NCBI GenBank assembly: GCA_947648205.1
Contig: CANSNC010000001.1
Span: 1-64,000 of the forward strand
Source of the DNA: an uncultured Mycoplasma sp.
GTDB taxonomy: Bacteria; Bacillota_I; Bacilli_A; Mycoplasmatales; Mycoplasmoidaceae
Direction of reading: 5' to 3'
DNA: 64,000 bases
Shown: one piece after another, positions 1,831 to 22,938 of the stretch
Numbering within the stretch: the first letter of the stretch is position 1
Layout: each line of letters opens with the position of its first letter
The notes under the pieces: generated by a model
The model's input: only the letters and a program-made list of their open reading frames with translations
What the model was told of the DNA's origin: nothing
The model's database searches: none
Made by a program: the position numbers and the translations under genes

Positions 1831-4086
1831 ATGGCAGTAAAAATTATAACTTTACGTAATTATAAAGTTGTTGCTAAAAAATTTATTAAGGTATTAAGAA
1901 AAATAATCCAGTCAAAACCAAGTGTTAGAATTGGATTAATTTGAGATGAATCTTTGGCTCCAATTTATGATTTTGTAATAAAATCAAAAAAACTAAAATG
2001 GGATAATGTTAAAATTTTTTCATTAGTTGAATATAAAGATATTCAATCAGTTACTTTTGAAAACACTTTGTATACTGAATTTATTAATAAATTACATAAT
2101 GTGACTAGACAAAATTATGATAGTTTAAGAGAGAGAATAGATGAGTTAAGATCAGAAGAAAAACTAAATGACTTATATAAATTTGATGGATTAATTGATC
2201 TTATAGTTTTTCCTATTGATAAAAGAGGTAATTTTTTATTTAATGATTTTGAATCAAATATTAATTATATTAATTATGGGAATAATGGTAATGAAATTGT
2301 TGCTCCTGGAATTAAATCTATTATGTTTTCAAAACAAGTTATTTGTTTTGCATTAGAAGAAGAATCTGAAAAAGTAGTAAATACATTAAATAGTAAAGTT
2401 CTTTCAAGTAATGAATTTGTTTCATTATTAAATGTTCATGACAATATTATCTTATTTACTTTGCATAGTATTATTAAGAAAAAAGAAATTAATAAAGATA
2501 TTTATGTCAATGACCCAGAATCTATATCTGATAAAGTTTTATCAACAACTTATGAGGGTTCTTTGTCATCTGACAATATGGAATTTGATGATACTAATAA
2601 AATATCTGATATGACAAAAGAGCATTTTGGTGATAATCATTTATCTTTGGATTTAGATGACGATGATGAAAATGATGATGAGGATGATATTTCAAATATG
2701 GAATTATCAGATAAAGAAATAGAAGTTGAAGATAATGATATTGTTGATAATTCAGATGATGATGGATTACCAATTGATGAACCTTTAAATAATGATAAAG
2801 ATAATTTAGATGATGTAATTAGAGATGTTATTGATATTGATGAAGAACCAACACAAGAAGAATTAGATCAAATCATGTTAGAGGAAGACGATAATTCTTT
2901 ATATGATGTTATAAAAGATGAATATGAATCATCATTGAATGAAGATGATGATAGTCTATTAGATAGTGTTTCTGAAAGCAAATTTGATTTAAGTTCTAGT
3001 GAGCAAGAAGATAAATATCTTGATGAAGAAGTGGTAGAAACTATTATTGGTGATAAAGAAGTTCCATCAGCTTTATATAAATCAGAAGAGTTAGATGATT
3101 CTATTATTAATAAAATTAAAGAGTTGGATAAATTAAAAGATGAAGAAATTTATCTAAAAGAATATCCTGCTGATATTGATAATGAAATTGAAGAATTACA
3201 AGAAATAAAAAAGCAACTTGAAAATGAATTAGCAGCAATGGAACAACAACAAGTTATTAATACTGATTCAGAAGATGGAGTTATTAAAAATTTTGAACCA
3301 GAACATCATAACGATTTTAATGATATTTTTGATGATGAATTATCAAAAGTTGCTGATCAGTATACAGATAAGCATGATACATTAGTTTTATATGAAGATG
3401 AACAAGAAAATTTTGAAGTGATTGATGAATCAAATAATAATGCATCTACATATGAAAATATTGATGTAATAGAAAATATAGATAAAAATGTTACAGATAA
3501 TAATTTAGAAAATAATGATGTTGAATTACAACCATATAATTATGAAAATAAATATGTTAACATTGATGGAAATACTCCAGATGAAATTAGAAAAATAATT
3601 AAAATTAAAGAAGATGCTTTAAATACAATAGAATTGTTGATTAAAAATAATAAACTTGGAATTCAACAAGCTAAAAAAGATTTTGTATCATCACCTAATA
3701 TATCTAGTACATCAGATAATCATTATATTAAATTGTCATATGTGCCAAGTGAAAGACCTGTGCCATTATTAATGGTTTATAATAATCCAGATGAAAAAAT
3801 ATATGAAAGTACAATTTTAGAAATGATTAAAGAATATAAGTCTAATATGAATGCTAGACTATTTAATAGAAAAAATAATCATTATTGAAATATGGGTGCA
3901 TATGTTTCTGTAAATAAAAAAACAAATGAACTTGAATTATGTGCATTTAGTGTTATTTCAAATTTTATCTTTTTATTAAGGTATATTAATAAACCAGTTT
4001 TCTTTTATTTAAGCAAATCTAATTATGAATTAATTAAAAATGAATTAGATAAATTTTTTGGTGAATTTGTTATAGAAGAAATTTAA
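1831..4086 (+). CDS. degenerate NagB-like domain with long acidic region
   Basis: A 751-aa cytoplasmic protein without signal peptide. Residues 1-217 follow the layout of glucosamine-6-phosphate isomerase (NagB/phosphogluconolactonase fold), but active-site positions are changed: the sugar-phosphate loop TGS becomes WDE (residues 38-40), the MDEY motif reads LVEY, and the G-x-DGH-x-FNE segment becomes DKRGNFLFND, losing the catalytic His. Residues 230-545 are extremely rich in Asp and Glu. The last 110 residues are globular and unrecognised. AAGGAG precedes the ATG. It therefore looks like an enzyme fold reused for structure or binding. Dead GpmI- and TPI-like genes nearby make a common theme. 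Fold assignment is by eye, moderately sure. Confidence 0.6.
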
Positions 4087-4150: not shown

Positions 4151-5917
4151 CTATATATTAGTATTATTAGAAAATTTAATTCTATTAGTTGGGTATTGTG
4201 TTTTATAATCTACTCATTTTTTCACAGAGGCATCTGAACTATTTTCGTTAGTAGATAGATATTTACCAAATTCTTTAAATGATTCAGATACTGATTCACC
4301 TGATATTCCAGCAGATTTATTTAATAACATGCTATAACCATCACCACCTGCTAGTAAAAAATCATTTGTTACTGCAAAGTATGTTTTTGTTGTGTCCTCT
4401 TTATTTACTTCAACTCCATTGATTTTTAATGACTGTACAGTATTGTTAGCTCCTGTTGCATCATTAGAATCAATTTGATAAGTAACTTCTATTTCCTTTG
4501 ATACTTGAAGAAATGATCCTGCTCCTTTTGTTTTTGCTGAGTGTTCAAAAATGTCTCAAACTGTTTTTGAATCTAATTTTACAACTTCTAGAGTGTTACC
4601 AAAAGGGCTTGTAGAATCTACATCACCATTTGTTACAACTTTTTTTCCATTTAAATCAGTTCCAGTTATGTTAGCTCTAAATGAACCTCCATTTATAAAA
4701 GCAAAATCAATTTGAGATGGAGTGGTTGTTGTGTCTGTTGATGATGTATTAATCTGAGTACTTGGTTTTATTCTATCATTTGCATCATAAACAAGTGCAT
4801 CAGCAAACACATCACCCAAATTAGTTTCCCTATTTCTAGTTTCCTCAACTGGATTTTGACCATCATTATTTATAGCAACTAATGTTATTTCTTCATTTGC
4901 AGGAAAAGTAAATGCTTCTTGTTTGGAATAAGTATCATATTGAGTCTGTAAAGGAGCAATCAATTCTTGAACTTTTTTATCAGCTTCTACCCCAATATTC
5001 TTATAATTAATCAAAGAAATATCAACATTTTTTAAAGATTTTTTATCATCTGAAAGTTCAAAATTTATTTGTCCTAAATTTTGTGTATAACTTCCTGTTT
5101 GTGCTATGAAAGTATTGTTTGGTTGACCTGTTTTGGAAATGATTTTACCATTTTCAAGTGTAGTGTGTGAATGGCCATCAATAATAATATCTAAACCATC
5201 AACTTCATTTGCAAGTTTTTCACTTGTGAATTCTGAAGTTGGATCTAGTCCTAAATGTGATATTGCTATAATTATATCTATGCCTTGCTTTGTTAATTCT
5301 TCAACACTTGCTTTTGTTTCATTAATAGGGTTTGTAAATTCAATTCCTGTTATATTTTTTGGATGTGTTTTAGTAGCAGTTTCAGGTGTTGCAACTCCTA
5401 TTACTCCTATTTTTGTTCCATCTAATAAATTTGTAATTTCATATGGTTTAAATAACAAACTATTATCGCTTTTTAATTTTATATTGTTAGCTAAATAATT
5501 TATATCATTCTTATCTTTAGTGTTTAACCCAGTTAATTTCTTTAAATTATCCAATCCAAAATCAAATTCATGATTCCCTATACCTTTAAAGTCATATCCC
5601 ATATAATTTGAAATATTAGTCGCTGTTTGACCATTATCTAAATTGCTAATTGGCAAACCTTGAAATAGATCACCAGCATCAATTAATAAATCATGTTTAT
5701 GATTCTTAGTGTATGTTGCAATTTTTTCTAATCCCATTCATTCATTATATTTTGCTGTACTTTCAGTTAATCTACCATGTACATCATTGGTATGAAAAAT
5801 TGTATGTATATGATTTTTATTATCATTTACATTAGTGCTACAACTTGTTATAAGTAATGAAGGGAATATTATACTAGCAGAAATACAAAAAACATATTTT
5901 AAACCTTTTAGTTTCAT
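4151..5917 (-). CDS. 5'-nucleotidase / metallophosphoesterase lipoprotein
   Basis: A 588-aa surface lipoprotein. The signal peptide ends in the lipobox LITSC with Cys26. The N-terminal calcineurin-like metallophosphatase domain has all dimetal motifs: TNDVHGR (D45, H47), DAGDLFQG, GNHEFDFG, ISHLG and DGHSHT. A C-terminal 5'-nucleotidase domain follows (FINGGSFRA and FLLAGGDGYSML). The family hydrolyses nucleoside 5'-phosphates and related compounds outside the cell, feeding nucleoside uptake in organisms that cannot make purines and pyrimidines. AAAGGA lies upstream of the ATG. The gene is transcribed divergently from the surface-protein operon and ends at the shared terminator. Length and motif order are usual. 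The exact substrate cannot be told from sequence. Confidence 0.9.
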
Positions 5918-6246
5918 TAAAATATCCTTTATTCATTTTTTATAGTTACAGTTATGAATAAAGTAATTAAGTCTTAAAACAATGCAAATAGGTGGAAGAC
6001 TAATTTAAATTATCCTATATTTTGTAACTACAAAATTATAATAATCTATATTTCTATTTTTTTTATTATAAAACTACTGCAAATTTTGTTTTTTTTTAAA
6101 CTATTTGATATAATAATGTTTTTTCTAATGTTTTGCTTATACCATAAAAAATTATTTTTTTTAATTTTTTTTACATTTTGGTATTTGATTTGGCCTTACT
6201 AATATTTTATAATTATTTATAAGACTAATGTAATCTAGGAGATGTT
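5918..6246. other. intergenic region between divergent genes
   Basis: This 329-base AT-rich stretch separates the nucleotidase gene (minus) from the surface-protein operon (plus). I see no coding potential or RNA gene. It holds the nucleotidase ribosome-binding site at its left end and a good promoter for the operon at 6185-6213. Long T and A tracts fill the middle. Confidence 0.6.
6185..6213 (+). promoter_or_regulatory. promoter of the first surface-protein operon
   Basis: TTGATT (6185-6190) and TATAAT (6208-6213) are 17 bases apart, an ideal sigma-70 layout, 34 bases before the ATG at 6247. The same -35 box and spacing occur before the duplicate surface gene at 16611. Confidence 0.65.
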
Positions 6247-8649
6247 ATGCAATCGAAAAGAAAAATTACAATGATTTTAAGCACCTTTATTACTGTTTCA
6301 GTGGCTGCAACTGTTCCCACTTCTTTATTAACATTAAATAAGGGTAATTTAGTTTCTATTGAAAATAATGATTTGAAAGATTGAAGTACTGGTGGGGCAA
6401 CTGATGAAACAGCAGCAACTTTTGCTTTCAAAACATCAGATGAATTAACATCACAATTTGAATCAAATCCTTTTACACCTAAAACTCCTCAAGATTTTAC
6501 AAATGAAGACATTAAATTATTTTTAAAAATAACAAATGGTTCTGCTAGTAATTGACATGTTGTTAAATCAGAAGTAACAAATGAAGATAGCATTAATGGT
6601 ACTGTTAGATTTAAAGTTTACCAAAATTTAAAAAAAGCAGATGGTTCATATCAAGAAACTTTAATTAAAAATGGACAGAGTGATGAATGAAATACAAATA
6701 CAGCATCTTATTTGTCAACCTATATAGTTAAAAATCAATATTCTTTTGAATGAGCATCAGATGAAGAAATGAAGAATTTTTTTGAAACTACAACTCTTAC
6801 AGCTAATCAATTGACAAAAGAAATAGTATTGAATAATTTAGTTTCAAGAAATTCTGTTTTGCCACCTGATGATCAGATAACTGTGACAATAAGTGATGTT
6901 AGTAATGATGCAGCAAATTATGGAGTTAAAAAAGTTTCTATCTCTTTTAATGGTTCAGTAACAACAACTTCTAGTAATAGTAATCAACAAATAACATCAG
7001 AAAAAACATTTAGAGGTTTTAAGTCAACAAATGGTGCATCTAATGAAATGTCATTAGAATTTACTTCAGAAAATATTGGTGATTGAACAATTAGTGATTT
7101 AAATGCTTTTAAAAATGCATTGGAACCAAATGAAAATAAAGTTCAAAATTTAACAGCTTCAGAATTTGTAAGTGTTATTGATAATACAAATCCAACTCAA
7201 CAAACAGCTTTATTAGATATGTTAACAAAAGGAACATATTTAACTAGTCAACCAATAGTTAAGATTAAATATATGAGTCTGGATGTAACAGATTCAAATT
7301 TTGCTAGTACAACAGGTTTATCTGCTGATGATTATAAGATAACAAAAGTTAGAACTATACCTAATGATGTAGATGGAAGTTTAGAACTTTTATATACATT
7401 TACTAGTATTGATATCTATACTGGTAAAAATGTTGATAAGGAAGTAAAGCAAACTTTTCCAGCAGGTACATTCAAAACAAATGCTGATGCAAATAAAATA
7501 TTAAAATTTGCTTGATTATCACAAGAAGCATTAATGCCTTTAGGTGGTTCATTAGATATGGTAAATTCTTCTAAGAAAAATTCTGATGATCCAGATTTTT
7601 TAAGATTATTAAGTAATCAGTTTTTTTCAGGAACTCAAGATACTTATGACAAACCAAGAACTGTTTCAATAGATTTTGAAAACGGAAGTACTTATAATAG
7701 TCAAACTGGCAATTATGAACCTACTGTTTCAAATGAAGAAAGTGTTATAGTAACTTTGACTTTTGATAGTTGAAATGGAGCATTTTATACTGATGAAACT
7801 GGGGCTGTTAGAGAAGGATTTAAAACTTCTAAGATTTTTAAACTAGATGGTTATACAGTTGAAGGAAATACAGTTAATTTTAAAACACAAAATGATTTTA
7901 TTGCTTCCAATCCAACATATGTTTATACTACGCCATCATCTATTGTTATGGATATAAAAGCAGCTGAAAATCCAAATGATCCAACTATTAATACTAAACA
8001 AGCAGCATTTTTTACATTAGGTGAAAATAATACTGCTAAACATGAAGTATCATATGTTCCTAATAATAGAGAAGGAACAATTAGTATAACAATATCATTT
8101 TATGAAGAAATTAATAGCGCAAAGAGTTATAAAGGTTCATATTTTAGAATTTATTCAGGAATGAAAAAAACACCTGAAACTTCTGATATTCTTGAATTTG
8201 CATGAATTCCAAGTACAGGAATAAATTCAGAATTATTATCAATTCCAATTGATGAAGTAACAAAGACAGATGTAATTGATTATTATTTAATAAACATTCC
8301 TATGTTTTCTAATAAGACACTTAATGAAAATAATGTTGATATAAAAGTTGAAGGTGATACTGTTTTAAAAGTGGATGTTACAATTTATAATTTTGACCAA
8401 GCAAACCCAAATATTACAGTAAGTGAGCAAAAATTTTTCACTAAATTAACTGGTTTTGCAAGTACAAAATATACAAGTGATGCAAATATAATTCCACCTA
8501 AGGATTTGACTGCTTTAATATCTATTCCAATTGCTGCTATAGGTACATGTATTTTAGTATTTGTATTAATTGCAATGGTAGCACAACGTGCAAGAATTAG
8601 ACGTTTCAAAGAAGATAAAGTTAAGTTAGAAGCTAAAAAATTAAAATAA
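6247..8649 (+). CDS. large anchored surface repeat protein, type A copy 1
   Basis: An 800-aa protein with an N-terminal signal sequence lacking a lipobox Cys and one C-terminal membrane helix (residues 755-779) followed by a basic tail (RARIRR). Nearly the whole chain is therefore predicted outside the cell. The outside part consists of about five diverged repeats of roughly 110-140 residues, each with a DG(S/T)L-type beta hairpin, an aromatic-Gly-Phe segment and a closing Phe/Ala-Trp. This pattern resembles the lipoprotein-17-associated repeats of mycoplasma surface proteins. AGGAG lies five bases before the ATG. It is the first gene of a probable four-gene operon with a type B partner and two dead glycolytic-enzyme-like genes. 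Adhesion or motility is a guess from architecture. Confidence 0.8.
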
Positions 8650-8685
8650 ATTATATTTATTTAAAAAATTAAAAAGGGAGTAATT

Positions 8686-11600
8686 ATGAAAATTAAAAAG
8701 AATAAAGTTTTATTAATAACAGGATTATTAATTTCAAGTGCATTATCTACTAGTATTGCAATCCCTTTAGCAAATACAACAAAATCTATTAACAATGATA
8801 TAAACGTTAATAGTGTTAGTCATAATGCTAAAGTGACAACAACTACTGATCCAAGCCATATAATTAATATTAGTGGAAATGATCCTTCTGAAACTACACA
8901 AAAAAGTTATTATGCTATGAGTAAATCAAATGACTCATATGCTATTTTAACTGCAAGTGCTGCTTCTTCAACTACTCCTGATCAAATTACAAAATATAGT
9001 TTATTTGATACAAATCCTGGTAATGCTCACTGAGTTATAAAGAAAGATACACTTAAGACAGATTCAGGTACAACTGATTCTGCTGTAACTATTAGAGCTA
9101 TTCAATATTCAAGTGGTAGTTTATTAACTACAGGATATTTATATGTATTGGTTACTGATACTAGCAAAGCATATATATTACAATATGATTGACAATCTGG
9201 TCAACTTGTAACAAATAAAAAAGTTACTATTAATAATGGAAATAATATTAAAGATTTTGTTGTTGCAGATGATGCAACAGATTCTTTGTTATTGTTTGAG
9301 GCATCTAAAATTACAAATGCTGATCAAGTTCAAACAATAAAGTTTTACAATGTAAATAATACACATTTTTCTAGTTCAACAACTACACCAACAGTTCAAA
9401 CACTTACTATTTCACAAACTATTTCTAACTCAAATTTTTCTAATAATATGTACTTAAGAGATTATGAGTTTATTAGTGGCAATTTGATATTAGCATATCA
9501 AGCAGGTTCAGTTGCTGCAAATGTTAAATCTCATGCAATTGTGAAAATAAAATTCAATAATGGAACTCTAGCAGAAAGTAATTTAAAATCAAATAATGCT
9601 GTAAGTTATACATTAACAACTGATGATGTTACTAAATTTGGTAATAGTAAGAAATTAAGTTTAGCTTTAGTTGATAAGGGTGATGCAACTAACTTCTCTG
9701 TAATAGTAAAAGCTAAAACTGATGTTGCAGCAGGTGGTGCTGACAACAATGATAGTATATTGGTATCAAATTTTAAAGTCACAGATTTAGGATTAACAAC
9801 TACTAGACAAGATAATTATCCAACAAAAGGAGGATATATTTTGCAAGTTGCTCCTTTATATGGTGATAATGCAACTGTCACAGGATTTTTAGCATTAGAT
9901 TCTTCAAATAAAGTAATATCTTTAACAAAAGATCTTAATGTTGAAACAATTTTGGCATCTTTTTCAACACAAACTGTTTACTATCTTTCAACTTCTACAT
10001 TATCATATGACTGATTTCCACAAGATATAGATGGAACAATTGGTGATTATTATAGAAACACATTAATTGGAAAATTGGGTACAACAACAGCAAATTTTAC
10101 TGAAATTTTAGCAAATTATAGTTTACTTTCAAATGATGAATTATCACCAAGTGTAAAATATAGAAAAGTATCATCTGATGGTTCAAGTCTTGATTCAACA
10201 ATGACTGCTTATTTAGCAAATGCAAATACTTATAAAGATTTTTTAAGAATTAATTCATATGATACAAGATTTCCAGAACCTGTTATTACTATAACTCCTG
10301 GAAATTTAACTAAAAATAGTGAAGGTGAATATAGTCTTCCATTAACATTTAAACAAACTTTAAGATCAAGAGATAGCAATGGTAATATAGTTAATACTAA
10401 TAAACAAGCTACTTTAGGAACTTATACTTATAATTTTGTAAACAGTGATGGCAAAATTGAACAAGTAACAGATAAAACTCAAATACCAACATCTTTATTA
10501 AATTTATTACCAAGTAAAGTAACTTTAAAAGATGTAGAAAAATATTTATTTAAAACATCTAATGTTGATGGTCTTCAATACACATTAAGTCCAGATGATA
10601 TTAATGGAATATTGAATGTTACTATTAATGTTCCTTATATGTGACAAAATGGACAATTGAAATCAGGATTAATATTAACTTATAGTTTTGGTAGTGAAGG
10701 TAACCCTTTCTTTAAATCAGATTCTTTAGCTCTATATGATACTAGTGTTTCATTAGTAACAAAAGCATTTATTGATGATACAAATAATACAGATATTTCA
10801 AATACTCTAAAATTGAAATATAGTACAACATTACCTTCAGAAGTATCTAAAGATGATTATTTAGCTGATTTTGTTAGAATGGGTGCTGCTTATACTAATA
10901 TTGCATTAATTAACTCAGGAGAAATTATTTTACCAACAACTAATAATATTACAGTAACTCCAATTGATAAAGAAGGTGTTGCAATTGTTGAAGTTATATT
11001 TCCAAAAGTTGGAGAAAAAACTAATGTTACTTATAGTTTTGAAACAGCTAATGTGTTTAAAAGTAATATTTATGCAAATGAAAACTTTTATTTTATGTTT
11101 AAAAATAATGATGAAGTTTTAAATTATAAAGTTAGTGACAACCAAACATATGAAAAATATCAAGCTACACAAATTGCTAGTGTTATTACTTCTGCATCAA
11201 GTTCAGAAAAAAGAGATGTGTTATCAAGGTTTGCTAATTTTTCAAATTATTTTGGAAATTTATTAACTACACAAAATTCTAGTGGTGAAGATTTAATTAA
11301 AGTTCAAGCTAAAGGTGATGATTTGGCTGGTGCTACAACTATTACTGTTACTTTAACTGAGGATTTACCAAATGTTGAAAGTAAAGTGTTTACTCAAGTG
11401 TATACAGGATTTAATAGACAAAATACAAATGTAGTGGCTGCTATTTCAGGATTTAAATTTGCAGATCAATTAAGTTCTACAGTTTTATCTAAAGCTCCAA
11501 GTGAAGTTACAGAAGATGATTTAAAAGTATCAAATGTATTTGTTTATAGTGGTAGTGCATCTTCTTTAGAAAAACAAATAAGTATTACTCCTATTAATAC

Positions 11601-12531
11601 AAATGGATCATTAGAAGTTACTATTTTATTTAAAAATTGAATTGAAGAGCAAAGAACTGTAACTGGTGCTACACAAAGAGTTATTGTTCCAGAAAAACGT
11701 TTTACAAGAGTTTATTATGGATTAAAAGCTACAGCTGATCCATTAGATATGGTTGTATGAAAATCATATGATGAATTAGACCAACAATATAGAACTCAAG
11801 GTTTACCAAGTGATATTGTTTCTCAAATTAAATCAACAAATCCAGAACCTTTAGACCAATTAAGAATTTTTTCAAATTTAACAAAAAATTTAGAAACTTA
11901 TTTAACAAATACAGCTACAACTAGCACTGGTCAAAAACCATTAGAAGTTAATTTAAGTTTTAATGATTCTTTAGGAAGTATAACTATAGTTGCAAGTATT
12001 TTAATGAATCAAAAAACTCAAGTATTTAATTCTACAATTAGTGGTTTTGGTACAAGCAATACTGATTTTGGAATTATTATGGTTAGAAATGACAGTGAGG
12101 CAGCAGAATCAATAAAAAATAAATTAGCTAGTGAAATTACTGATACAGATATTGGAAAACTTTATAGTTTAACTTCTGGTATTGAATTTGAAAAACAAAT
12201 TACTACTTCATTTGATGATACTAAGGGAACTTTATCTTTAAACATTAAACTTGTTGATTCAACAGGTCAAGTGAGGGCAGAATCAAATGCAACTTATTCT
12301 GGTTTTAAAACTAATGTTCCAGAATATAAAGGTACTAATTGATTAATATTTGGATTGGCATTTGGAATTCCTATTGTAGTTTTAATGATTCCTATTTTGT
12401 TTATTAAATTGTATTTAGTAAGAAGAGATATGAAAAAATTCTCTAAAAAACTTGATTTAAGATTGACTGAACAAAGTAAAGTTAAAAAATCTAAAAATGT
12501 TAGAACAATTAAAGATTTATTAGATAGATAA
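8686..12531 (+). CDS. giant anchored surface repeat protein, type B copy 1
   Basis: A 1281-aa protein with an N-terminal signal/anchor (basic KIKKNK then a hydrophobic run, no Cys) and a C-terminal membrane helix at about residues 1220-1246 after the motif GTNW. Residues 40-440 are Ser/Thr-rich beta structure with short repeated blades, possibly a propeller. Residues 450-1215 hold about six lipoprotein-17-like repeats, recognisable by LPSEV-type openings, a Gly-x-Leu beta hairpin and a closing SGF segment. A 39-base cytoplasmic-side gap separates it from the type A gene, and GGGAG precedes the ATG. The duplicate at 18970 is colinear over its whole length. It is probably displayed with the type A protein as a pair. 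Function is unknown. Confidence 0.8.
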
Positions 12532-12547
12532 TAAAAAGGAAAAATAT

Positions 12548-15523
12548 ATGAAAAATACATTATTGTTTTTAAGTGTTGATGGTATTGGATTAAATAATAG
12601 ATGAAAAGGTAATTGTTTAAAACTTGCTGATAAACCAAATATAAATTATTTAATATCTGGTATTTATCCGTGAGCTACATTATCTAATGCCAAAAAGAAA
12701 AGTAAAATAAACATAAAAAAAGAATTTGATTCTGTTTCAACAGATATTGATAAAAATTTTTATCAAATGTTACATGGGAATAAAGATGTATTAACTTTGA
12801 ATGAAAGAATTAAAGAAGAAGTAGAAAACAAAACTTTAATTAATAATCCAATGTTTAATGATTTGGTAGAACATGCAAATATTTCAAATTCTAAGTATGT
12901 TCATGTATTTTTCCTTTTATCGAAAAACACTCATCATTGTTTAATAGATAATTTTAAATATATATTAAACATTTTAATTAAAAAAGGTTTAAAACCTGTC
13001 TTACATTTAATTGCAGATGGAAAAGATTCTTTTCAATATTCATTTGCAAATACATTAAAAGAAATAGAAGGATATTTAGTAAAAAGAAATATTCAAATAG
13101 GAACAATTGTTGGTAGAAATAATGCTTTTATTCAACAAGGAAGAGATTACAAAAATTCTATTAATGTAAATAAATATTTTGATGTTTTATGTGGAATGGG
13201 TGATAATAGTTTTACTTTAGCAAAAAATTATGCTATTCAAAATTTATTTGATAAAGTTAAAGACCAAGACATTTTGCCAGCATATAATTCAAACATTGAT
13301 AAATATTATTTAGATAAAAATGATGCTGTGTTGTTCATTGATTCTGATTATGACAATTTTTCTCCACTGTTACACTTAATTAAAAATGAGAGAAAATTTA
13401 TTGATCTTTATATAGCATCTACATCTCCAATTTATGGATATGATGTAAATTCATTAATGTACAGTCCATATGATAGTTCTATGGCTATTACAAATGTAGC
13501 TAGTCAAAATAATTTGAAAACTCTTGTAATATCGACTAGTCATAAAAAAGGTTTTCTAAATAAGTATTATGGATATGAAAAAGATGAAAATGTTACAAAG
13601 AAAATAATTAAAACTGATTATACAAAAAATTCTTTAGATTACATTTTTTCAGCAAATAAATTAATAATTGATAGTGCTATTAAAGCTATAGGAAAATATG
13701 ATTTTATAATTTTACACATACCAACAATTGCTGAAGCTGCACAGGAATCAAATTTAAAACTTTTAAAATTTGCAATTGAAAATTTTGATAAGAATCTTGG
13801 TAGATTAATAAATTATGTAAAAGTTACTGGAAATGTAATGGCATTTACTTCACCATATGGTATTTGTGAAAAAATGTTAAATAAAAAACTTGAAATAAAT
13901 TCAAATATAAAAAATTCTATTGTTCCTTTTGTATTTACTAATGGTGATTTGTCTGCAAAAAGTTTAAAATCAAATTTTATTGGTGTTTATGCAACATTAT
14001 TAGTTTCTTTAGGAATTAAAGATTTAGACCAAGGAATTTATAATAGATCATTAATTACTAGAAATTATAATATGAATATAATTCATGATAAATTAGCAGA
14101 TCACTATAATGTTTGAAAAAATGAGTTAGCTATTCCAGTTATTGAAAAATTTGCTAATGAACAATTATGTTTATATTCTGATATTGAAAAAAATAAATCA
14201 TATCTTGAACAAAAACAACAATATGTTGTAATAAAAGAAATAATTAAACTACATGAAAGATTATTTACAACTCCTGAAGCTAGAAAGTTAATTTTTGATA
14301 AATTGCTTCATTATGTTTCATATAATGGAATAGACTTTGAAGGATTTAAATATAATTATTCAAAATTATTGATGACTCTTTTTGATGATGAAATTAAATT
14401 ATCAAAACTATCAAGTTTTACATATAGATTTTTTGATAATCGTTTATGAAAGACTCAAATTAAAAGAAATGATAAATGATTTAATAAAGTGAAAAATGAA
14501 ATATTGCCATCACTTGATAGATCAATGCCAGAAAGTAGTGTTAAAAAAATCGTTAATTATTTAAATGTGAACATTGAACCTTATCAATATTTTGAAAGAT
14601 TATTTCAATCAGAAAAAGATGTTCTTTTAACAAATGATGCAGAAAAAATTGTTGATTTCTATATAAATATTAAAGATGAAGTAGGTAGTATTTATCAAGA
14701 ATATTTTGGTTCTAGAGTTCCAGCAGAAGATGAAGAACAAGTTTTTGAAGATGCAAATGATAATGTTTTAGCAAACCCAGATTTCAACAAAATAGTTTCT
14801 TATTATGAAGCATTTTTAGAAGTTATTGATTTGGTTGAAGAAAGCAAAGACAAAGCACATGCATTTAATGTTAAGTATTTAGAAAATCAAAAAATTCTTA
14901 AAAATAAAAAAGAAATTACTGATGTTTTTGAAGCTGAACAATATATGCTTAATTATTTAGTAAGAAAAATAGTTTCTATTTATCAACAATGAAAACGTAA
15001 AGTTAATTCATTTAATAGAGATGCAGTTAAATCACTTGTTCAAACTATGAATAAATATGATAATAAATATGGTAAAAGAGTTAACAATGCTTTACTTGGT
15101 ATATCATATGAAGGTGAATTCTTTGAGGATTTAGATTTAGACTCTCAAGAATATTTTGAAAGTTTAGTTAATGAAAAAGTTAGAGAAGATGGTTTCTTTG
15201 ACTATCCATCAATTGATGTTAATGATAACAATGATGATGAATATGTTTCACCATTATTAGAAGATATTGATCCACTTGTATTAAAAGAAGTTGATCAAAT
15301 AATTAGTACTAGATCAGCATATGATTTAACTACTGTATGAAATAAAAAACGTCATGATGAAATTAAAAATATAGAAAATATTTCTCAAAATTTCACATTA
15401 GATGCTGAAAATATGGTTATTGATGAAAGAAAGTTCAGAGAATCGAGAAGTAAAGTTAAAGAATATTCTAATCTAAGTAATGTGTGATACAAAAAGATTT
15501 CTAATAAAGAAAGTGATCTTTAA
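12548..15523 (+). CDS. catalytically dead GpmI-like protein with large C-terminal extension
   Basis: A 991-aa cytoplasmic protein. Residues 1-515 follow cofactor-independent phosphoglycerate mutase: LFLSVDGIG at the start (D11), a DGKDS segment and GRNNAFIQQ as in the family, and a C-terminal phosphatase-like core. The catalytic set is mostly gone: no NSEVGH (nucleophile Ser), the NPDMVGH motif reads IPTIAEAAQ, TADHG reads TSPYG (residues 434-438), and PHTAHT is absent. Residues 516-991 are charged, largely helical and unrecognised. Standard GpmI has about 510 residues. The gene starts 16 bases after the type B surface gene, with AAAGGA before the ATG, and is followed by a dead TPI-like gene 14 bases on. 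A structural or adaptor role is inferred. Confidence 0.7.
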
Positions 15524-15537
15524 TATAAGGGGTAGTT

Positions 15538-16455
15538 ATGAGACAAAAAAAGATTATTGCTAATTGAAAATTAAATGCTGATTATGTGTCTATTAAAAAA
15601 TTTATAGACAATATTTCTGAGGTTGAAAATGTAGATTTATTGGTAGCTCCAAGTTATATTGGTTTATTACCAACAATGAATCTTGCTAAAAAAAGAAGAC
15701 TTTCAGTTATTGCTCAAAATACAGATCTTGTAACTGTGGGTAATCATACAGGTTCTACTTCATGAATTGAACTTAAAGATTATGGAATTAAAACAGTTAT
15801 AGTAGGGCATCCTGAAGTAACAAAAACTTTTAATGAATCAAGTGTTTTAGTAAACAAAAAAGTTAAAACATTATTAGAAAATAATATGAAAGTTGTTTTG
15901 TGTATTGATGAATCAAGAACAGATTTATTAAAAGACTCAACTAAAGAAGCAATCAGATTAAAAATTAAAAAGTCTCTTGAATTTATAAATAAATCATACT
16001 TAGCAGAAAATTTATTAATTGTTTATAAACCAACATTTGTAGGAGAAGTTGGTTTGAGACCTACACCAACTTTTATTGTTGATACAATTAAAGTTATTAG
16101 AAATTTCTTAAGAGAAGAATATGGATTCTATATTGGTAATCATATACCATTATTATATGGTGGTGATTTTTTAAGTGAAGATGTAGAAGAGATAGTTAAA
16201 TCTGATCACATTGATGGATTATTTATAGATGATGAAAAAGCAGTTAGTGCAAAATATGTTAGTTTACTTATTAAATATTTATATAAATACTCAACTGATA
16301 GTTATGCTAAATTTTATGAAAACAATTTATTAATTACTGAACCATTAGAATCAAATAGATATGAAGCTAAAAAAGTGAATTTATCTTTTGATGAATATGA
16401 AATTGATAATGATATTTACTTCAAAGAAATTGATATTACTGAAGAAGAAATATAA
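15538..16455 (+). CDS. catalytically dead triosephosphate-isomerase-like protein
   Basis: A 305-aa protein. Residues 1-255 follow triosephosphate isomerase: ANWKLN (N9, K11), AQNTD, the HTGSTS turn and VIVGHPE with H91 at the electrophile position. The catalytic Glu is replaced by Lys164 (VYKPTF instead of the usual YEPVW), loop 6 reads GEVG, and the phosphate-binding GG near the end reads DD. Residues 256-305 are an added acidic tail. It is therefore unlikely to isomerise triose phosphates; a true tpiA should lie elsewhere. It is the last gene of the surface-protein operon, 14 bases after the GpmI-like gene, and ends before a strong terminator. Binding or scaffold function is inferred. Confidence 0.75.
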
Positions 16456-16461
16456 TAAAAT

Positions 16462-16497
16462 AACCTTTAAATTTTCTTTAGAATTTAAAGGTTTTTT
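16462..16497 (+). terminator. terminator of the first surface-protein operon
   Basis: A perfect 12-base stem (16462-16473 with 16482-16493), an eight-base loop and a T-run follow the TPI-like gene by six bases. It separates the four-gene operon from the second surface pair. Confidence 0.9.
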
Positions 16498-16547: not shown

Positions 16548-16576
16548 TTGATTTACCCCTTTTTTTCAACTATAAT
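16548..16576 (+). promoter_or_regulatory. promoter of the second surface-protein pair
   Basis: TTGATT (16548-16553) and TATAAT (16571-16576) are 17 bases apart, identical in boxes and spacing to the promoter at 6185-6213, and lie 34 bases before the ATG at 16611. Confidence 0.65.
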
Positions 16577-16610
16577 TTATTAAAATGGTATTTTTATGGG
16601 GTGTATCAAA

Positions 16611-18956
16611 ATGAAAAAGACTAAATTAATATCTCTTTGAACAACATCATTAATTTCATTAGCCTCTATTTCAGTAGGGTCAACTTTTGCAATTTCAAAT
16701 TTACCAATATCAAATGAACCATTAACTGATGTTAATCAACATGCTATTGCTGATGGTAATACTACACAAACAACTGCTAGTTGAAAATACACTAATAATG
16801 ATATAAATTCATGAGAATATTATGGTAAATTAAGACCAAATGAAATAAATGAAGAACAAATAAAGTCTTTATTGAGTTTTGCTCATTATGATGCAATTAT
16901 TAACATTGAAATACAGAAAATTGAAGATAGACATTTAACTAATGGATATGTTGAATTTAAAGTAAAACAAACTTTGAATCAATTTCAAAATGGTGTTCCT
17001 GTTTCAAGTAGCACAGTTGAGTTAAAGAATAATAATAATGCATTATGATCTACTCAGCAGTTTTCAGGATTATTAATACCAGATAAATACAATTTTAAAT
17101 GAAGAAGTGTTGATGAGATTTCCCAATTTTTAGCAGATACTAAAAAAACATATGATACTCTTACTATTGATGATGTTTTATTAAATATGGTTGAACGTGG
17201 AGAAAATTTTAAACTTCCTGCAAGTGCAACTTTAAATAAACAAAAAATTACTTCTAATGAAGCTAATGATAAAAAATATGGATCTGTTCTTATTACAATT
17301 AATTTTGCAAATGCTGATACATCTACAGATTGAGTTGGAAACAAAGTTCCAACACAGAATGAAAGACAATATAAAATTAGAGGATTACAGTCAACTGATT
17401 CAAATATTGCTAGTACAACAATGGATTTTGTAGAAAAAGCAAATTATGAAGTTCAATCACTAAATATAAATACACAAGAACAAGACAACCCTTTAAATAA
17501 ATATTTAGTTGGTAGTGAAAATAGTTTATCAGGAACTTTAGCAGATTTATTTCCAAGTGAACTTGTTAATTTTGGTGGTTCAGATTCAAATGCTTTATTA
17601 TCATTATTAACACAAGGTTTGTATTTAAACACAACAGCAACAGGTAATAACAAAATAGCACAATTAATGTATTATGGACAAAATGTTGATGAAACTAATT
17701 TTGCTACTACTACAGGATTAAGTCAAAATGAAATTTCTCAAATTGGAATTAATAGTGTTGAAGGTATTGCTGATGATTCAAAAGGGTCTTTAAAATTAGT
17801 ATATGAATATAGTAAGTATGATGTTTACACTAATAGTATAGTTAAAGAGGAAAAATCTACTACATATCCTGATGGTACATTTAAAGTAAATCCTGATGCA
17901 AATAAGACTTTACAGTTCTCTTGAAAAAATGATTCATCTTTAGTTGGTGTTTCATCAAGTTTTAAAGTTGTTAATGATTTTCAAAATAATAAAAATGATC
18001 CTGAATTTATCAAAGCTTTGTCTAATCAATTTATTAATGGCTCTTATGATGTTTATTCAAAAGACAGAACTGTTGATATACAATTTGGAAATGGTCAATC
18101 AGCCTCAACCAGTGGATCAATAAATCCAACTTCTGCTGAAGATAAAACTGTTAAAGTAAGCTTAACTTTTGATTCTTGATCTGGTGAAAGATACAAAGAT
18201 CAAAATGATGTTTATGTAGAAGGATTTAAAACAGAAAAAGTTTTTACTCTTAAAAGTTACAATAGTTCTATTTCTGGTATAACTTGAAAATCACAAGATG
18301 AAGTTAAAACAGCTCTTGGTGATATTTCAAAAATGTCTGTTGTAGATGTTGCAGATAAATTATTTAGCAAAGAAATCCCATTATCTACATTTGTTACAGG
18401 TGCTGATAATAAATCAGTAATTTACAACATCATTCCATCAACTGGAAGTATTAATATTTCAGTAGAAGATGGAACAAATGTAGAAAGTAATGTTTATACT
18501 GGTTTTTTAAATGAAGGAATTAACAATGTTACTCAATTTAGTTGAATTCCAATAAGTTCTGTATCTCAAACATTATTATCAACAAATTTAAATGATGTTA
18601 CTAAAGATTTAGTCATTAAAGAGTATTTATCAAAAATTCCTGCTTTTAATGGACAAGAAATAAATCCTGATGATGTTACTATAACACCTAATATTGAAAA
18701 TAAATCATTGGTTGTTGAAGTTAATTTAACAAAATATAATCAAGAAACAACTGATGCAAATAGAAATTTTAAAATTGAATTAAAAGGATTTGTTCAAACA
18801 AAAATAACAGATGGAAACTCTTATGTAGCTCCATTAAACCTAACTGTTGTATTGAGTGTTGTATTAGCATTATTTATCAGCATTATATTAATTGCTGCAT
18901 TAGTAGTAATTTTAATTAGACGTGCAAAATTAAAAAAACAAAATCAAAAAAAATAA
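16611..18956 (+). CDS. large anchored surface repeat protein, type A copy 2
   Basis: A 781-aa diverged paralogue of the 800-aa protein encoded at 6247, colinear from signal peptide to C-terminal helix (residues 744-769, then RRAKLKK). Shared landmarks include FA(S/T)TTGLS, the TFK-x-N-x-DANK segment before a Phe/Ala-Trp, and a FSWIP block before the last repeat. It has no lipobox Cys. The start at 16611 is preferred because GGGGTG lies upstream; an in-frame ATG at 16596 has no ribosome-binding site but cannot be excluded. It forms a two-gene unit with the type B copy and has its own promoter. The dead-enzyme genes were not duplicated with it. Most of the chain is predicted outside the cell; the role is unknown. 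Confidence 0.8.
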
Positions 18957-18969
18957 ATAGGAGAATAAT

Positions 18970-21900
18970 ATGAAAAAAATATTTATGAAAAGATATTTAA
19001 AATTATTTTTAGGTGTAACTGCTTTAGCGCCTATAGTTATTCTTCCTACAATTAAAGTTGTTGATTCAACTAATAATAAAGAACTTATAGTTAATAGAAA
19101 TAGTACATCAAGTTTTGATTACAATTGAAAGACTAATAATAATTCAGCTGTAACAATGTACAATACTCCTTCACATATGACTAAATCAGGAAATACTATT
19201 AGTTATAGTTTGGATACTTTACAACAAGACACAGCATATGATGATGCATACACTTCATATGCATCAGTTGGTTCAACAAGTAATACTGCTTTTAATAATG
19301 ATATAATATCTAAATTTTGATTGTCAGCTGTTTCACAATCTAAAGAAGAAAATGGAGCAACAACAAATTCAGTTTCTGTTCCTGGTTCAAAACAATGATC
19401 AGTAAAAAAATCAGATTTAGCCACTTTGATTGGTGTTAATACTGATAGTGAAACAAAAATTGAATCTATTTTATATTCAGGTGGTGGAGAGTTAGTTAGT
19501 AAAGCTTTATTTGTTATTTTATCATCAACAAATACAACAACTTCAGGATCATTTTTGTTTGAAATTAAATGAGAAGATGATGTGAAAGACTTAAAAGCTC
19601 AAAAAGCTGGTGATTATAGATTGGTTAGACAATTATCATCAACTATAAGTGATAAATTTAATTTTATGACATTAGAAGCAGCTGCAACACACACTATTCA
19701 TTTTTTTCAATTGAATAGTTTCACAAAAAGCACATCAGGTTCAGCTGCTGACTATACTATTAAATCAGGAAAGATTACTGGTACATCTAATTTTTCAACA
19801 GATAATACTACTCAAGCAACATATACAATAAGTGTTTCTTCAGCATTATTTAATAATAAAGTTACTGATAATATAGAATATAAACCAATATTTGCATACA
19901 GATCTAATTCATTAGGTAATAATGCTTATTTTATTTTTCAAGCAAGTTCATATACTAGTGCTAATTCAAATAAATATTTATTTACTCTAAAAGTGCCAAC
20001 TTTAAACACTAGTGATTTTACAGTAGATCAAACTATTGGTGCTAATTCTATAAAAACAATAAATGTTGATTCTGCTACAACTCCATTCAAGGATAATACT
20101 AATATTACTGTTACATTAAGTCAAAATAATAGTTCAAATTACATGATGTTTTTTTCACAAGAAGATGCAGCTCAACCAACAGGTTATTATGGTTATTTAA
20201 ATTTAAATTTAGCTGATAATAGTTCAACATCAGAGTATAAAACAACAAAAATAGAAAATAATAATACTGGCAGTATGACTGATTTATATACAGTTAGTAA
20301 ATTGTATAGTGCTACTAGTGAATTAATAGGTTATGTATTTTTAGATAAAAAAGGTCAAGTATTTCAGTATGATTTAAAATTTGAATCTCCTATACTATTA
20401 TATAATTTTAAACAAAGTACAATTCAATTAGGAGAGATTTATAATATTGTTACATCTCCAAGTAGTGCTAGTTGATTTGGACAAATGACTGATTCAACTT
20501 TTGGCCAATTTAATGGAAATACATTTGTTGGTCAATGAGATAAATTGGCTCAAACAGATTCTTTTGAATTGCCAATAAAATTTAATATTAGATCTCAATC
20601 TGAAGTTGCGCCTTCTGTTATAAGTCAAAAAGTTGCAGCAGGAAATACATATGCATCAGAGTTTATAAATTATTTAGGTAATGGTGAATCATATAAAGAT
20701 TTTTTGGATGTAACTTTTCAAGATCCAAGATTAAGTATTTCTCCTTCAATCAGTATTACACAATCTAATTTTGTTGCTGCTGATGATAAAATATATACTG
20801 TTACTTTAACATTTAAACAAAAATTAAGAAAGATTGATTACAATGGAAATATAACTTCAGAGAATGATGTTAAAGAAGTTACTTTGGCTAGTCAAACTTA
20901 TAAATTTAATAATGCAATTTCTAAAGTTTATGCAGCTAATGAGACAGATGATAGTGGGCAAGAAAAACAACCAATACCTGTATTTATAAAAAATAAACTA
21001 CCTAGTGAAATTACAAAAGATGAAATTAAAAACTACTTAGTTGTTTTAGAAAATGTTACAAATGAGTCTATTACATCTACATATAATGATAGTACAGGTA
21101 GTATGAGAGTTATTGTTACAGTTCCATATATGTGAGAAGTAACTGCACAAGGTGAAGCATTAACTGCAAATAAAGTTTTTGCATTTGACTATAGTAATTA
21201 TTTTTACTTTAATTCTTTAGGTAGTTCAGCAAGTATTACTGAAATTGATACTACATATATAGACAAACCAGAAAATGCTAATTTAAAAACTTCTTTATTG
21301 GCTAAATATGGTGCTAAATTACCTTCATCAGTTGATCCACAAGAATTAATTAATTCATTTGTTATTTTTGGTCCTGCTTTTAGTCAACAAGCAAATTATG
21401 ATTCTGGTGTGATTTCAAATCAAAATGAGTGAATAATAAATGTTATTCCTTATGATAAAGAAGGTAAAGCAAAAATAGATATAACAATACCAAAATTAGC
21501 AAATTCAAATAATGTAAGAATTTTATTTGAAACTCCATCTATATTTTTATCAAATCCAAATGCTAATGCTTCAGTATATTTTATGTTTAAAGAAAATGTT
21601 GAAGTTATGAATGATGATTTAAAAAGACAAAGTGCATCTACTATTGCATCAAAGTTAAATTCATCAACAGGGAATAATAGTGGTGTAATTTCTAGCTTAG
21701 AAACTTTTGCAAGATTTAGTGATTATTTTGTATCTTATATTAATGATGGAACTATAAAAGTTAGTGCTGTTGGAAATGACACTTATGGTACATTAAAAAT
21801 TGTATTAGATGTAACTAAGGATGGAGAAAAATTACCTGGCTTTAGTTCTTCTTCAATTGAAACAATTTTTCAAGGTTTTACACAAACTGCAGGTACACTG

Positions 21901-22938
21901 TTACTTAATGATACTTTTAAATTTAAAGAAAGTCTTGATAATATTTCAAATATTTCTCCTTTAAATATTACAGCTGATAGATTAATGAATGAATTTGACA
22001 TTTTTAATGGTAGTTCAGAGACAACTAAGAATAAAATAACTTCATCTAATATTACTTTAAATAAATCTACAATTAGTGGTACAGTTCAAGTTGTTGTTAC
22101 AATTGAAAATTATGTTGAAAATGGTACAGTTTATCCACAAAAATCTTTTATCTATACATATAGTGGATTTAAAAAGTCTCAAGAACCAGTTGATATGGTT
22201 GTTTGAAAATCTTTCTATGAGATAACTACTGATAATCAAAGTTATAAAAATTCTAGACCATCAGATATTATTAATTCTATAAATTCTACTTCTATGTCTA
22301 ATAAAGAAAAATTAAATGTTTTTGCTAATGTATCTACAGATTTAAGCAATAAAGTTACTGATTCTGATATTAGTATAATATTAGAAGGAAATGATGGTAC
22401 TGGTGAATTAACAGTTACTGCAACAATAAAAGTGGATGATACTTCTTTATCACTTAGCACAATTATTGATTGTAATGATAATCAAAGTTTAACACCACTT
22501 ATTAATTTGATTTCTGATAATTCAAATAATGCAGATTTAGCTTTATTAAGAAATAAATTACCAAGCGAAGTATCTCCAGAAGAAGCAGCAAAATTATATT
22601 CTTTTACAAATGCTAATTCGTATGTAAAAGAAGTTGATTTGATTCCAGATGATGCTCAAGGTTTATTAAATGTAAAAGTTAGATTATTAACAAGTGCAGG
22701 TGCTGAAATATTATCATCATCAAATTTATATACTCAGTTTGCCAAATTTATACCTAAAAATGAAGGTACTAATTGAGGTATTGTTGCTGCATCAGTTATT
22801 GTGCCTGCAACAATTCTATTGATACCTATTATTATCTTAGGTGTAATTGAGGATAGAAAAAATAGACAAAAAATTGCAAAAAAACTTGATAATAGACTTA
22901 ATGAAGAATATAAAAAGAATTACAATAAAAAATACTAA
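18970..22938 (+). CDS. giant anchored surface repeat protein, type B copy 2
   Basis: A 1322-aa paralogue of the protein encoded at 8686. It starts with a basic and hydrophobic signal/anchor, carries a Ser/Thr-rich N-terminal half, then the same series of lipoprotein-17-like repeats (YKDFL block, LPSEI/V openings, a VDMVVWKS block), and ends with GTNW and a membrane helix near residues 1271-1292 plus a charged tail. GGAGAA precedes the ATG, which lies 13 bases after the type A stop. The two type B copies align along their length but have few long identical stretches, so the duplication is old. A strong terminator follows. Adhesin-like display is inferred from topology only. Confidence 0.8.

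Follow-up and report, generated by a model that had tools for sequence, protein, structure and literature searches.

We analysed a window of 64,000 nucleotides from an uncultured Mycoplasma sp. (assembly GCA_947648205.1, contig CANSNC010000001.1, positions 1 to 64,000), the open reading frames of which were read with genetic code 4. Between positions 6247 and 16455 of the plus strand lie four genes in the order A1, B1, GpmL and TpiL, separated by gaps of 36, 16 and 14 bases, an arrangement identical to that given in the first-pass annotation of this DNA. The promoter and terminator proposed in the same annotation were also recovered. A promoter-like site, TTGATT-17-TATAAT, with a 10/12 match is located at 6185..6213 (plus strand), and the closest two relatives, G006 and G008 (the latter probably M. 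iowae), have identical hexamers at an identical distance ahead of A1, even if promoter-like sites in the AT-rich region of the operon are no more frequent than expected by chance. Downstream of the fourth gene, at about 16462..16497 (plus strand), we found an intrinsic terminator-like hairpin with a 14-pair stem and a T-run behind it (−12.6 kcal/mol, z −3.5), which a simple terminator scan had overlooked because the stem is AT-rich. The four genes are presumably co-transcribed.

The cluster had been described as ending at 16455. This holds for the four-gene operon but not for the cluster as a whole, which continues to 22938 with a second A/B pair. This pair is preceded by a promoter-like site identical to that of the first operon (TTGATT-17-TATAAT, 16548..16576, plus strand) and consists of A2 (16596..18956, plus strand), 30% identical to A1, and B2 (18970..22938, plus strand), 30% identical to B1 and equipped with a shorter tail. 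A search of the whole genome yielded only two A genes and two B genes, all in this single cluster. The second pair is also found in G006 and G008, and the M. penetrans group does not have it next to the operon; the tail of B2 is without the terminal DLL motif that the B1 orthologues carry. The gene families further downstream (cysS, SpoU methylase, permease) were considered as a clue to the role of the operon and explain nothing.

Surface proteins A and B

A1 (6247..8649, plus strand; 800 aa) and B1 (8686..12531, plus strand; 1281 aa) each contain one N-terminal hydrophobic segment, a single C-terminal membrane segment (residues about 760–778 and about 1220–1238, respectively) and a basic tail. 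The ectodomain of A1 comprises about 725 aa and its tail includes RARIRRFK; the conserved tail of B1, predicted to be cytosolic, is about 41 residues long. B1 matches PF04200 (Lipoprotein_17) in four stretches, the A and B types are related to each other by profile comparison (98.5%, 2.9e-15), and both look like arrays of Lipoprotein_17-type modules. The epithet ‘giant’, given to them earlier, is an overstatement, since the estimated masses of about 88 and 138 kDa make them large but not giant in the manner of Gli349 or Gli521. A low-confidence model of the N-region of B1 resembles a propeller and matches many propellers, mostly eukaryotic, with E-values of about 1e-6, and we treat this resemblance as a hint only.

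Two degenerate glycolytic enzymes

GpmL (12548..15523, plus strand; 991 aa) consists of a degenerate iPGM fold (residues 1 to about 490) and a helical extension (about 491–991), and has no membrane segments. The first half matches the iPGM_N (2.4e-17) and Metalloenzyme (1e-12) families, agrees with iPGM in sequence comparison and is confirmed as iPGM by fold comparison (6e-14). The structure model has an overall pLDDT of 55, and we took from it the iPGM half and the helical character of the remainder. The extension, of about 500 aa, is predicted to be helical with low confidence, and a search with its profile gave no hit among 394 further genomes of the class. The NSEVGH motif with the nucleophile (Ser62), present in all GpmI controls, is missing in all eight GpmL sequences examined, in which the metal ligands are likewise replaced (D403 by A, D444 by P or A, and H445 by Y). 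The loss of metal and nucleophile residues had been noted in the first-pass annotation. H407 is Q, R or K in six of the eight sequences, whereas the position is still occupied by His in the two others, both of which lack the other ligands.

TpiL (15538..16455, plus strand; 305 aa), also without membrane segments, displays a TIM fold (3.7e-41 against the TIM family) with a C-terminal tail of 60 aa. The replacement of the catalytic Glu165 by Lys, noted previously for this sequence, extends to all 10 TpiL orthologues. Their phosphate motif reads YGGD or YGGE instead of YGGS and loop 6 (WAIGTG) is replaced, while N9, K11 and H91 (corresponding to Asn11, Lys13 and His95 of TPI) are invariant in 10 of 10 orthologues. 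Judging from their residues, GpmL is catalytically dead as an iPGM and TpiL as a TPI.

Eight of the ten Malacoplasma genomes encode, away from the operon, ordinary tpi and gpmI genes that adjoin one another. In the present assembly (28 contigs, 93% complete) we found PGK but no working tpi, gpmI or eno. Because sister genomes carry all three side by side, a missing stretch is likelier than gene loss, and their absence is probably an assembly gap, although the contig carrying the upstream neighbour gene of the block has other genes at that place. The possibility that TpiL is the sole TPI of the organism was considered as well; with the block intact in sister genomes, the assembly gap is the likelier explanation.

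Conservation, descent and selection

Linkage of the surface genes to the dead enzymes in Malacoplasma genomes had been set beforehand as a test of the proposed association. Eight of the ten Malacoplasma genomes carry the full set of four genes on a single contig, arranged A-B-GpmL-TpiL and separated by 2–43 bases. The remaining two, which are the most fragmented assemblies of the ten, are consistent with this arrangement: G003 has the operon divided between two contigs, with the genes ordered as expected, and of the operon in G004 the GpmL-TpiL end alone is assembled. A linkage peculiar to this strain is thereby ruled out. The ten genomes include G001, which we take to be, very probably, M. 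penetrans HF-2; in M. penetrans the operon genes are located at 21.6–32.4 kb of the genome. Strong TpiL matches occur in 10 of the 95 genomes of the family, all of them in the genus.

GpmL and TpiL retain the folds of GpmI and TPI and are clearly homologous to them, but differ in that the catalytic residues are lost, the length of GpmL is doubled, the genes are linked to surface genes and their order is reversed relative to the canonical tpi-gpmI pair. In phylogenetic trees, GpmL (support 100/100) and TpiL (90/93) each form one clade, the inner order of which matches that of the working enzymes of the genus, which points to one old event followed by vertical inheritance. Since the working tpi and gpmI lie next to each other, their joint duplication would be a natural origin of the GpmL/TpiL pair, although the deep placement in the trees is unsettled and the gene order reversed.

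For close pairs, dN/dS amounts to 0.005–0.041 for TpiL and 0.052–0.096 for GpmL, compared with 0.084 for TPI and 0.065 for GpmI in the single pair of working enzymes measured, and to 0.17–0.26 for A1 and 0.15–0.23 for B1. The dead enzymes are thus under strong purifying selection, like the active ones, whereas the surface proteins drift faster; within B1, the mean identity is 60% in the tail versus 39–49% in the ectodomain. Such values rule out that GpmL and TpiL are decaying pseudogenes, and strong purifying selection implies that the dead enzymes have some function.

A related arrangement is present in G010, which belongs to a second genus. There, an A-like gene (949 aa, its start cut by the stretch read) and a B-like gene (1403 aa; match at 2.8e-29) are followed by a gene for a 783-aa protein and one for a TPI-like protein (262 aa). 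In the latter, the catalytic Glu is replaced by Met, and the TpiL profile gives this protein 69 bits, more than the 38 bits obtained with the general TIM profile, the opposite of what is seen for working TPIs. The 783-aa protein seemed by eye to resemble GpmL, but its scores against the GpmL profile are the same as those of shuffled controls, and we rejected the notion that it is a diverged GpmL. The A-B-X-TpiL layout thus extends past the genus, whereas GpmL is shown only inside it. The 783-aa orphan (L052:7143-9494), which occupies the position of GpmL, has no match in other genomes of the family or in Pfam. Separately, G017, from another genus, encodes a second, degenerate TPI-like protein (L053:9482-10267; Glu to Lys) immediately upstream of a canonical GpmI, with a working TPI elsewhere. 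It was left out as a further case of the linkage, given that it adjoins the canonical GpmI rather than A/B genes, and is perhaps an independent dead TPI.

Comparison with known systems

The first-pass annotation had drawn an analogy with the gliding machinery of Mycoplasma mobile, in which large surface proteins (Gli123, Gli349 and Gli521) are likewise combined with a recruited glycolytic enzyme inside: the twin motor contains an F1-like ATPase and PGK as a subunit (PMC11864180). The analogy stands as regards this recruitment, but the enzymes recruited here are different ones, and the PGK of the M. mobile motor retains its active-site residues (PMC11864180), so that dead enzymes are no feature of that motor. 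M. mobile does have a PGK homologue in which residues are lost, MMOB4490, but it is not the motor subunit (PMC11864180). The two systems are also alike in being conserved inside and drifting outside, the internal proteins of the M. mobile machinery being more conserved than the surface ones (PMC7052211). No F1-like type 2 ATPase genes were found in the operon cluster or among the neighbouring genes.

In the Nap complex of M. genitalium (P140/P110; P1 and P40/P90 in M. pneumoniae), each of the two surface proteins has a single C-terminal TM helix and cytosolic regions, and the N-domain contains a beta-propeller (PMC7280502). A and B, too, are a pair of surface proteins that each carry a single C-terminal TM segment, and the propeller of the Nap N-domain may be compared with that modelled at low confidence for the N-region of B1. 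Nevertheless, a profile search against the PDB gave no match between A or B and the solved Nap proteins, and no Nap protein is among the 50 best fold matches of the B1 model. We know of no dead-enzyme genes accompanying the Nap complex. M. penetrans glides with a terminal organelle, without obvious molecular similarity to other gliding types (PMC9282661), among them those of M. pneumoniae and M. mobile, and M. iowae shows attachment-organelle adherence and motility (PMC4367981). Our literature search found no described role for the dead-enzyme and surface genes of the operon.

Possible functions of the operon

Given that GpmL and TpiL are soluble, strictly conserved and encoded in the A/B operon, a surface complex on a cytosolic scaffold is the simplest reading. 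We favour, with a probability of roughly 0.4, a membrane-spanning complex, characteristic of Malacoplasma, for attachment, perhaps gliding, in which A and B would constitute the surface assembly, their short basic tails reaching the cytosol, and GpmL and TpiL, former glycolytic enzymes that have lost their active sites, would now serve as the scaffold underneath. The 500-aa helical extension of GpmL would be the likely arm towards the A/B tails or an internal structure, and the likely site of action would be the terminal organelle. We infer both the physical contact among the four proteins and the scaffold role, whereas the link of the operon to adhesion or gliding, though plausible and the most attractive role, is conjectural. 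Several points count against this reading. Linkage in an operon need not mean contact. A2 and B2 come without dead-enzyme genes of their own, and the 783-aa protein of the second genus does not score as GpmL. As for gliding, it is on record for only two species of the genus, and no motor (ATPase) gene is encoded in the operon.

The presence of the operon throughout the genus fits adhesion and other surface functions alike, which weakens the case for adhesion and would suit a complex that needs no motility, for instance, one that captures host proteins or antibodies, with the dead enzymes as its inner platform. The Lipoprotein_17 modules of B, a domain of mycoplasma surface lipoproteins, are in line with such a role, but no similarity to solved binding proteins was found, and we regard it as unlikely. 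The active-site Asn, Lys and His kept in all ten TpiL proteins also count against the scaffold reading. They would fit a metabolic sensor, in which the dead enzymes, still able to bind glycolytic phosphates, adjust the A/B complex, be it for adhesion, uptake or secretion, to the energy state, with no motility scaffold involved; enzymes that lose catalysis often retain ligand binding. However, the altered YGGS motif, the replaced loop 6 and the loss of the metal site of GpmL suggest that ligand binding is impaired too, which renders a sensor quite improbable.

Alternatively, TpiL and GpmL could regulate glycolysis by associating with the working TPI or GpmI, in which case their position beside the surface genes would be historical. 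TPI is an obligate dimer, working copies are available in eight of the ten genomes, and the dead genes remain adjacent like the working pair; yet this account leaves unexplained why the linkage to A/B has persisted throughout the genus and in a second one, as well as the GpmL extension and the extra tail of TpiL, and we give it little credence. The position of GpmL and TpiL behind A and B in a tightly packed operon would equally befit assembly or export factors that fold, insert or place A and B and are absent from the mature complex, all the more so as A2 and B2 could use the same GpmL/TpiL pair. Both proteins are, however, devoid of chaperone-like features, and enzyme folds would be unusual in such a capacity, making this the least probable of the explanations considered.

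Kept genus-wide, the operon offers four named genes, of which GpmL and TpiL are candidates for the inner part of the Malacoplasma attachment or gliding machinery. If the scaffold reading is correct, it would add another mycoplasma case of metabolic enzymes recruited as machine parts, in this instance once catalysis had been lost. It would also illustrate how duplicated glycolytic genes can give rise to an internal apparatus.

A third degenerate sugar enzyme

Upstream of the operon, the window encodes a 751-aa NagB-like protein (1831-4086, plus strand; net charge −91) with an N-terminal glucosamine-6-phosphate deaminase fold (97.4% and 1.4e-11 against NagB, 9.7e-6 against solved NagB) followed by a long acidic extension. 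The fold has kept neither its phosphate loop nor the catalytic Asp and active-site His. We found the gene in nine of the ten Malacoplasma genomes; only here does it lie beside the operon. With this protein, recycled sugar enzymes become a recurring theme of the genus. One may envisage a Malacoplasma attachment and gliding organelle built around the dead GpmI and TPI, which would link the surface complex inward, with the dead NagB and its acidic extension forming part of the inner material. We consider this extended proposal doubtful; if true, it would represent a further independent mycoplasma invention from recycled sugar enzymes. Between the NagB-like gene and the operon lies a 5'-nucleotidase-like gene (window 4151-5917, minus strand), which was not found at that place in relatives. 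In those relatives that were read, the NagB-like gene stands beside an exonuclease-like gene.
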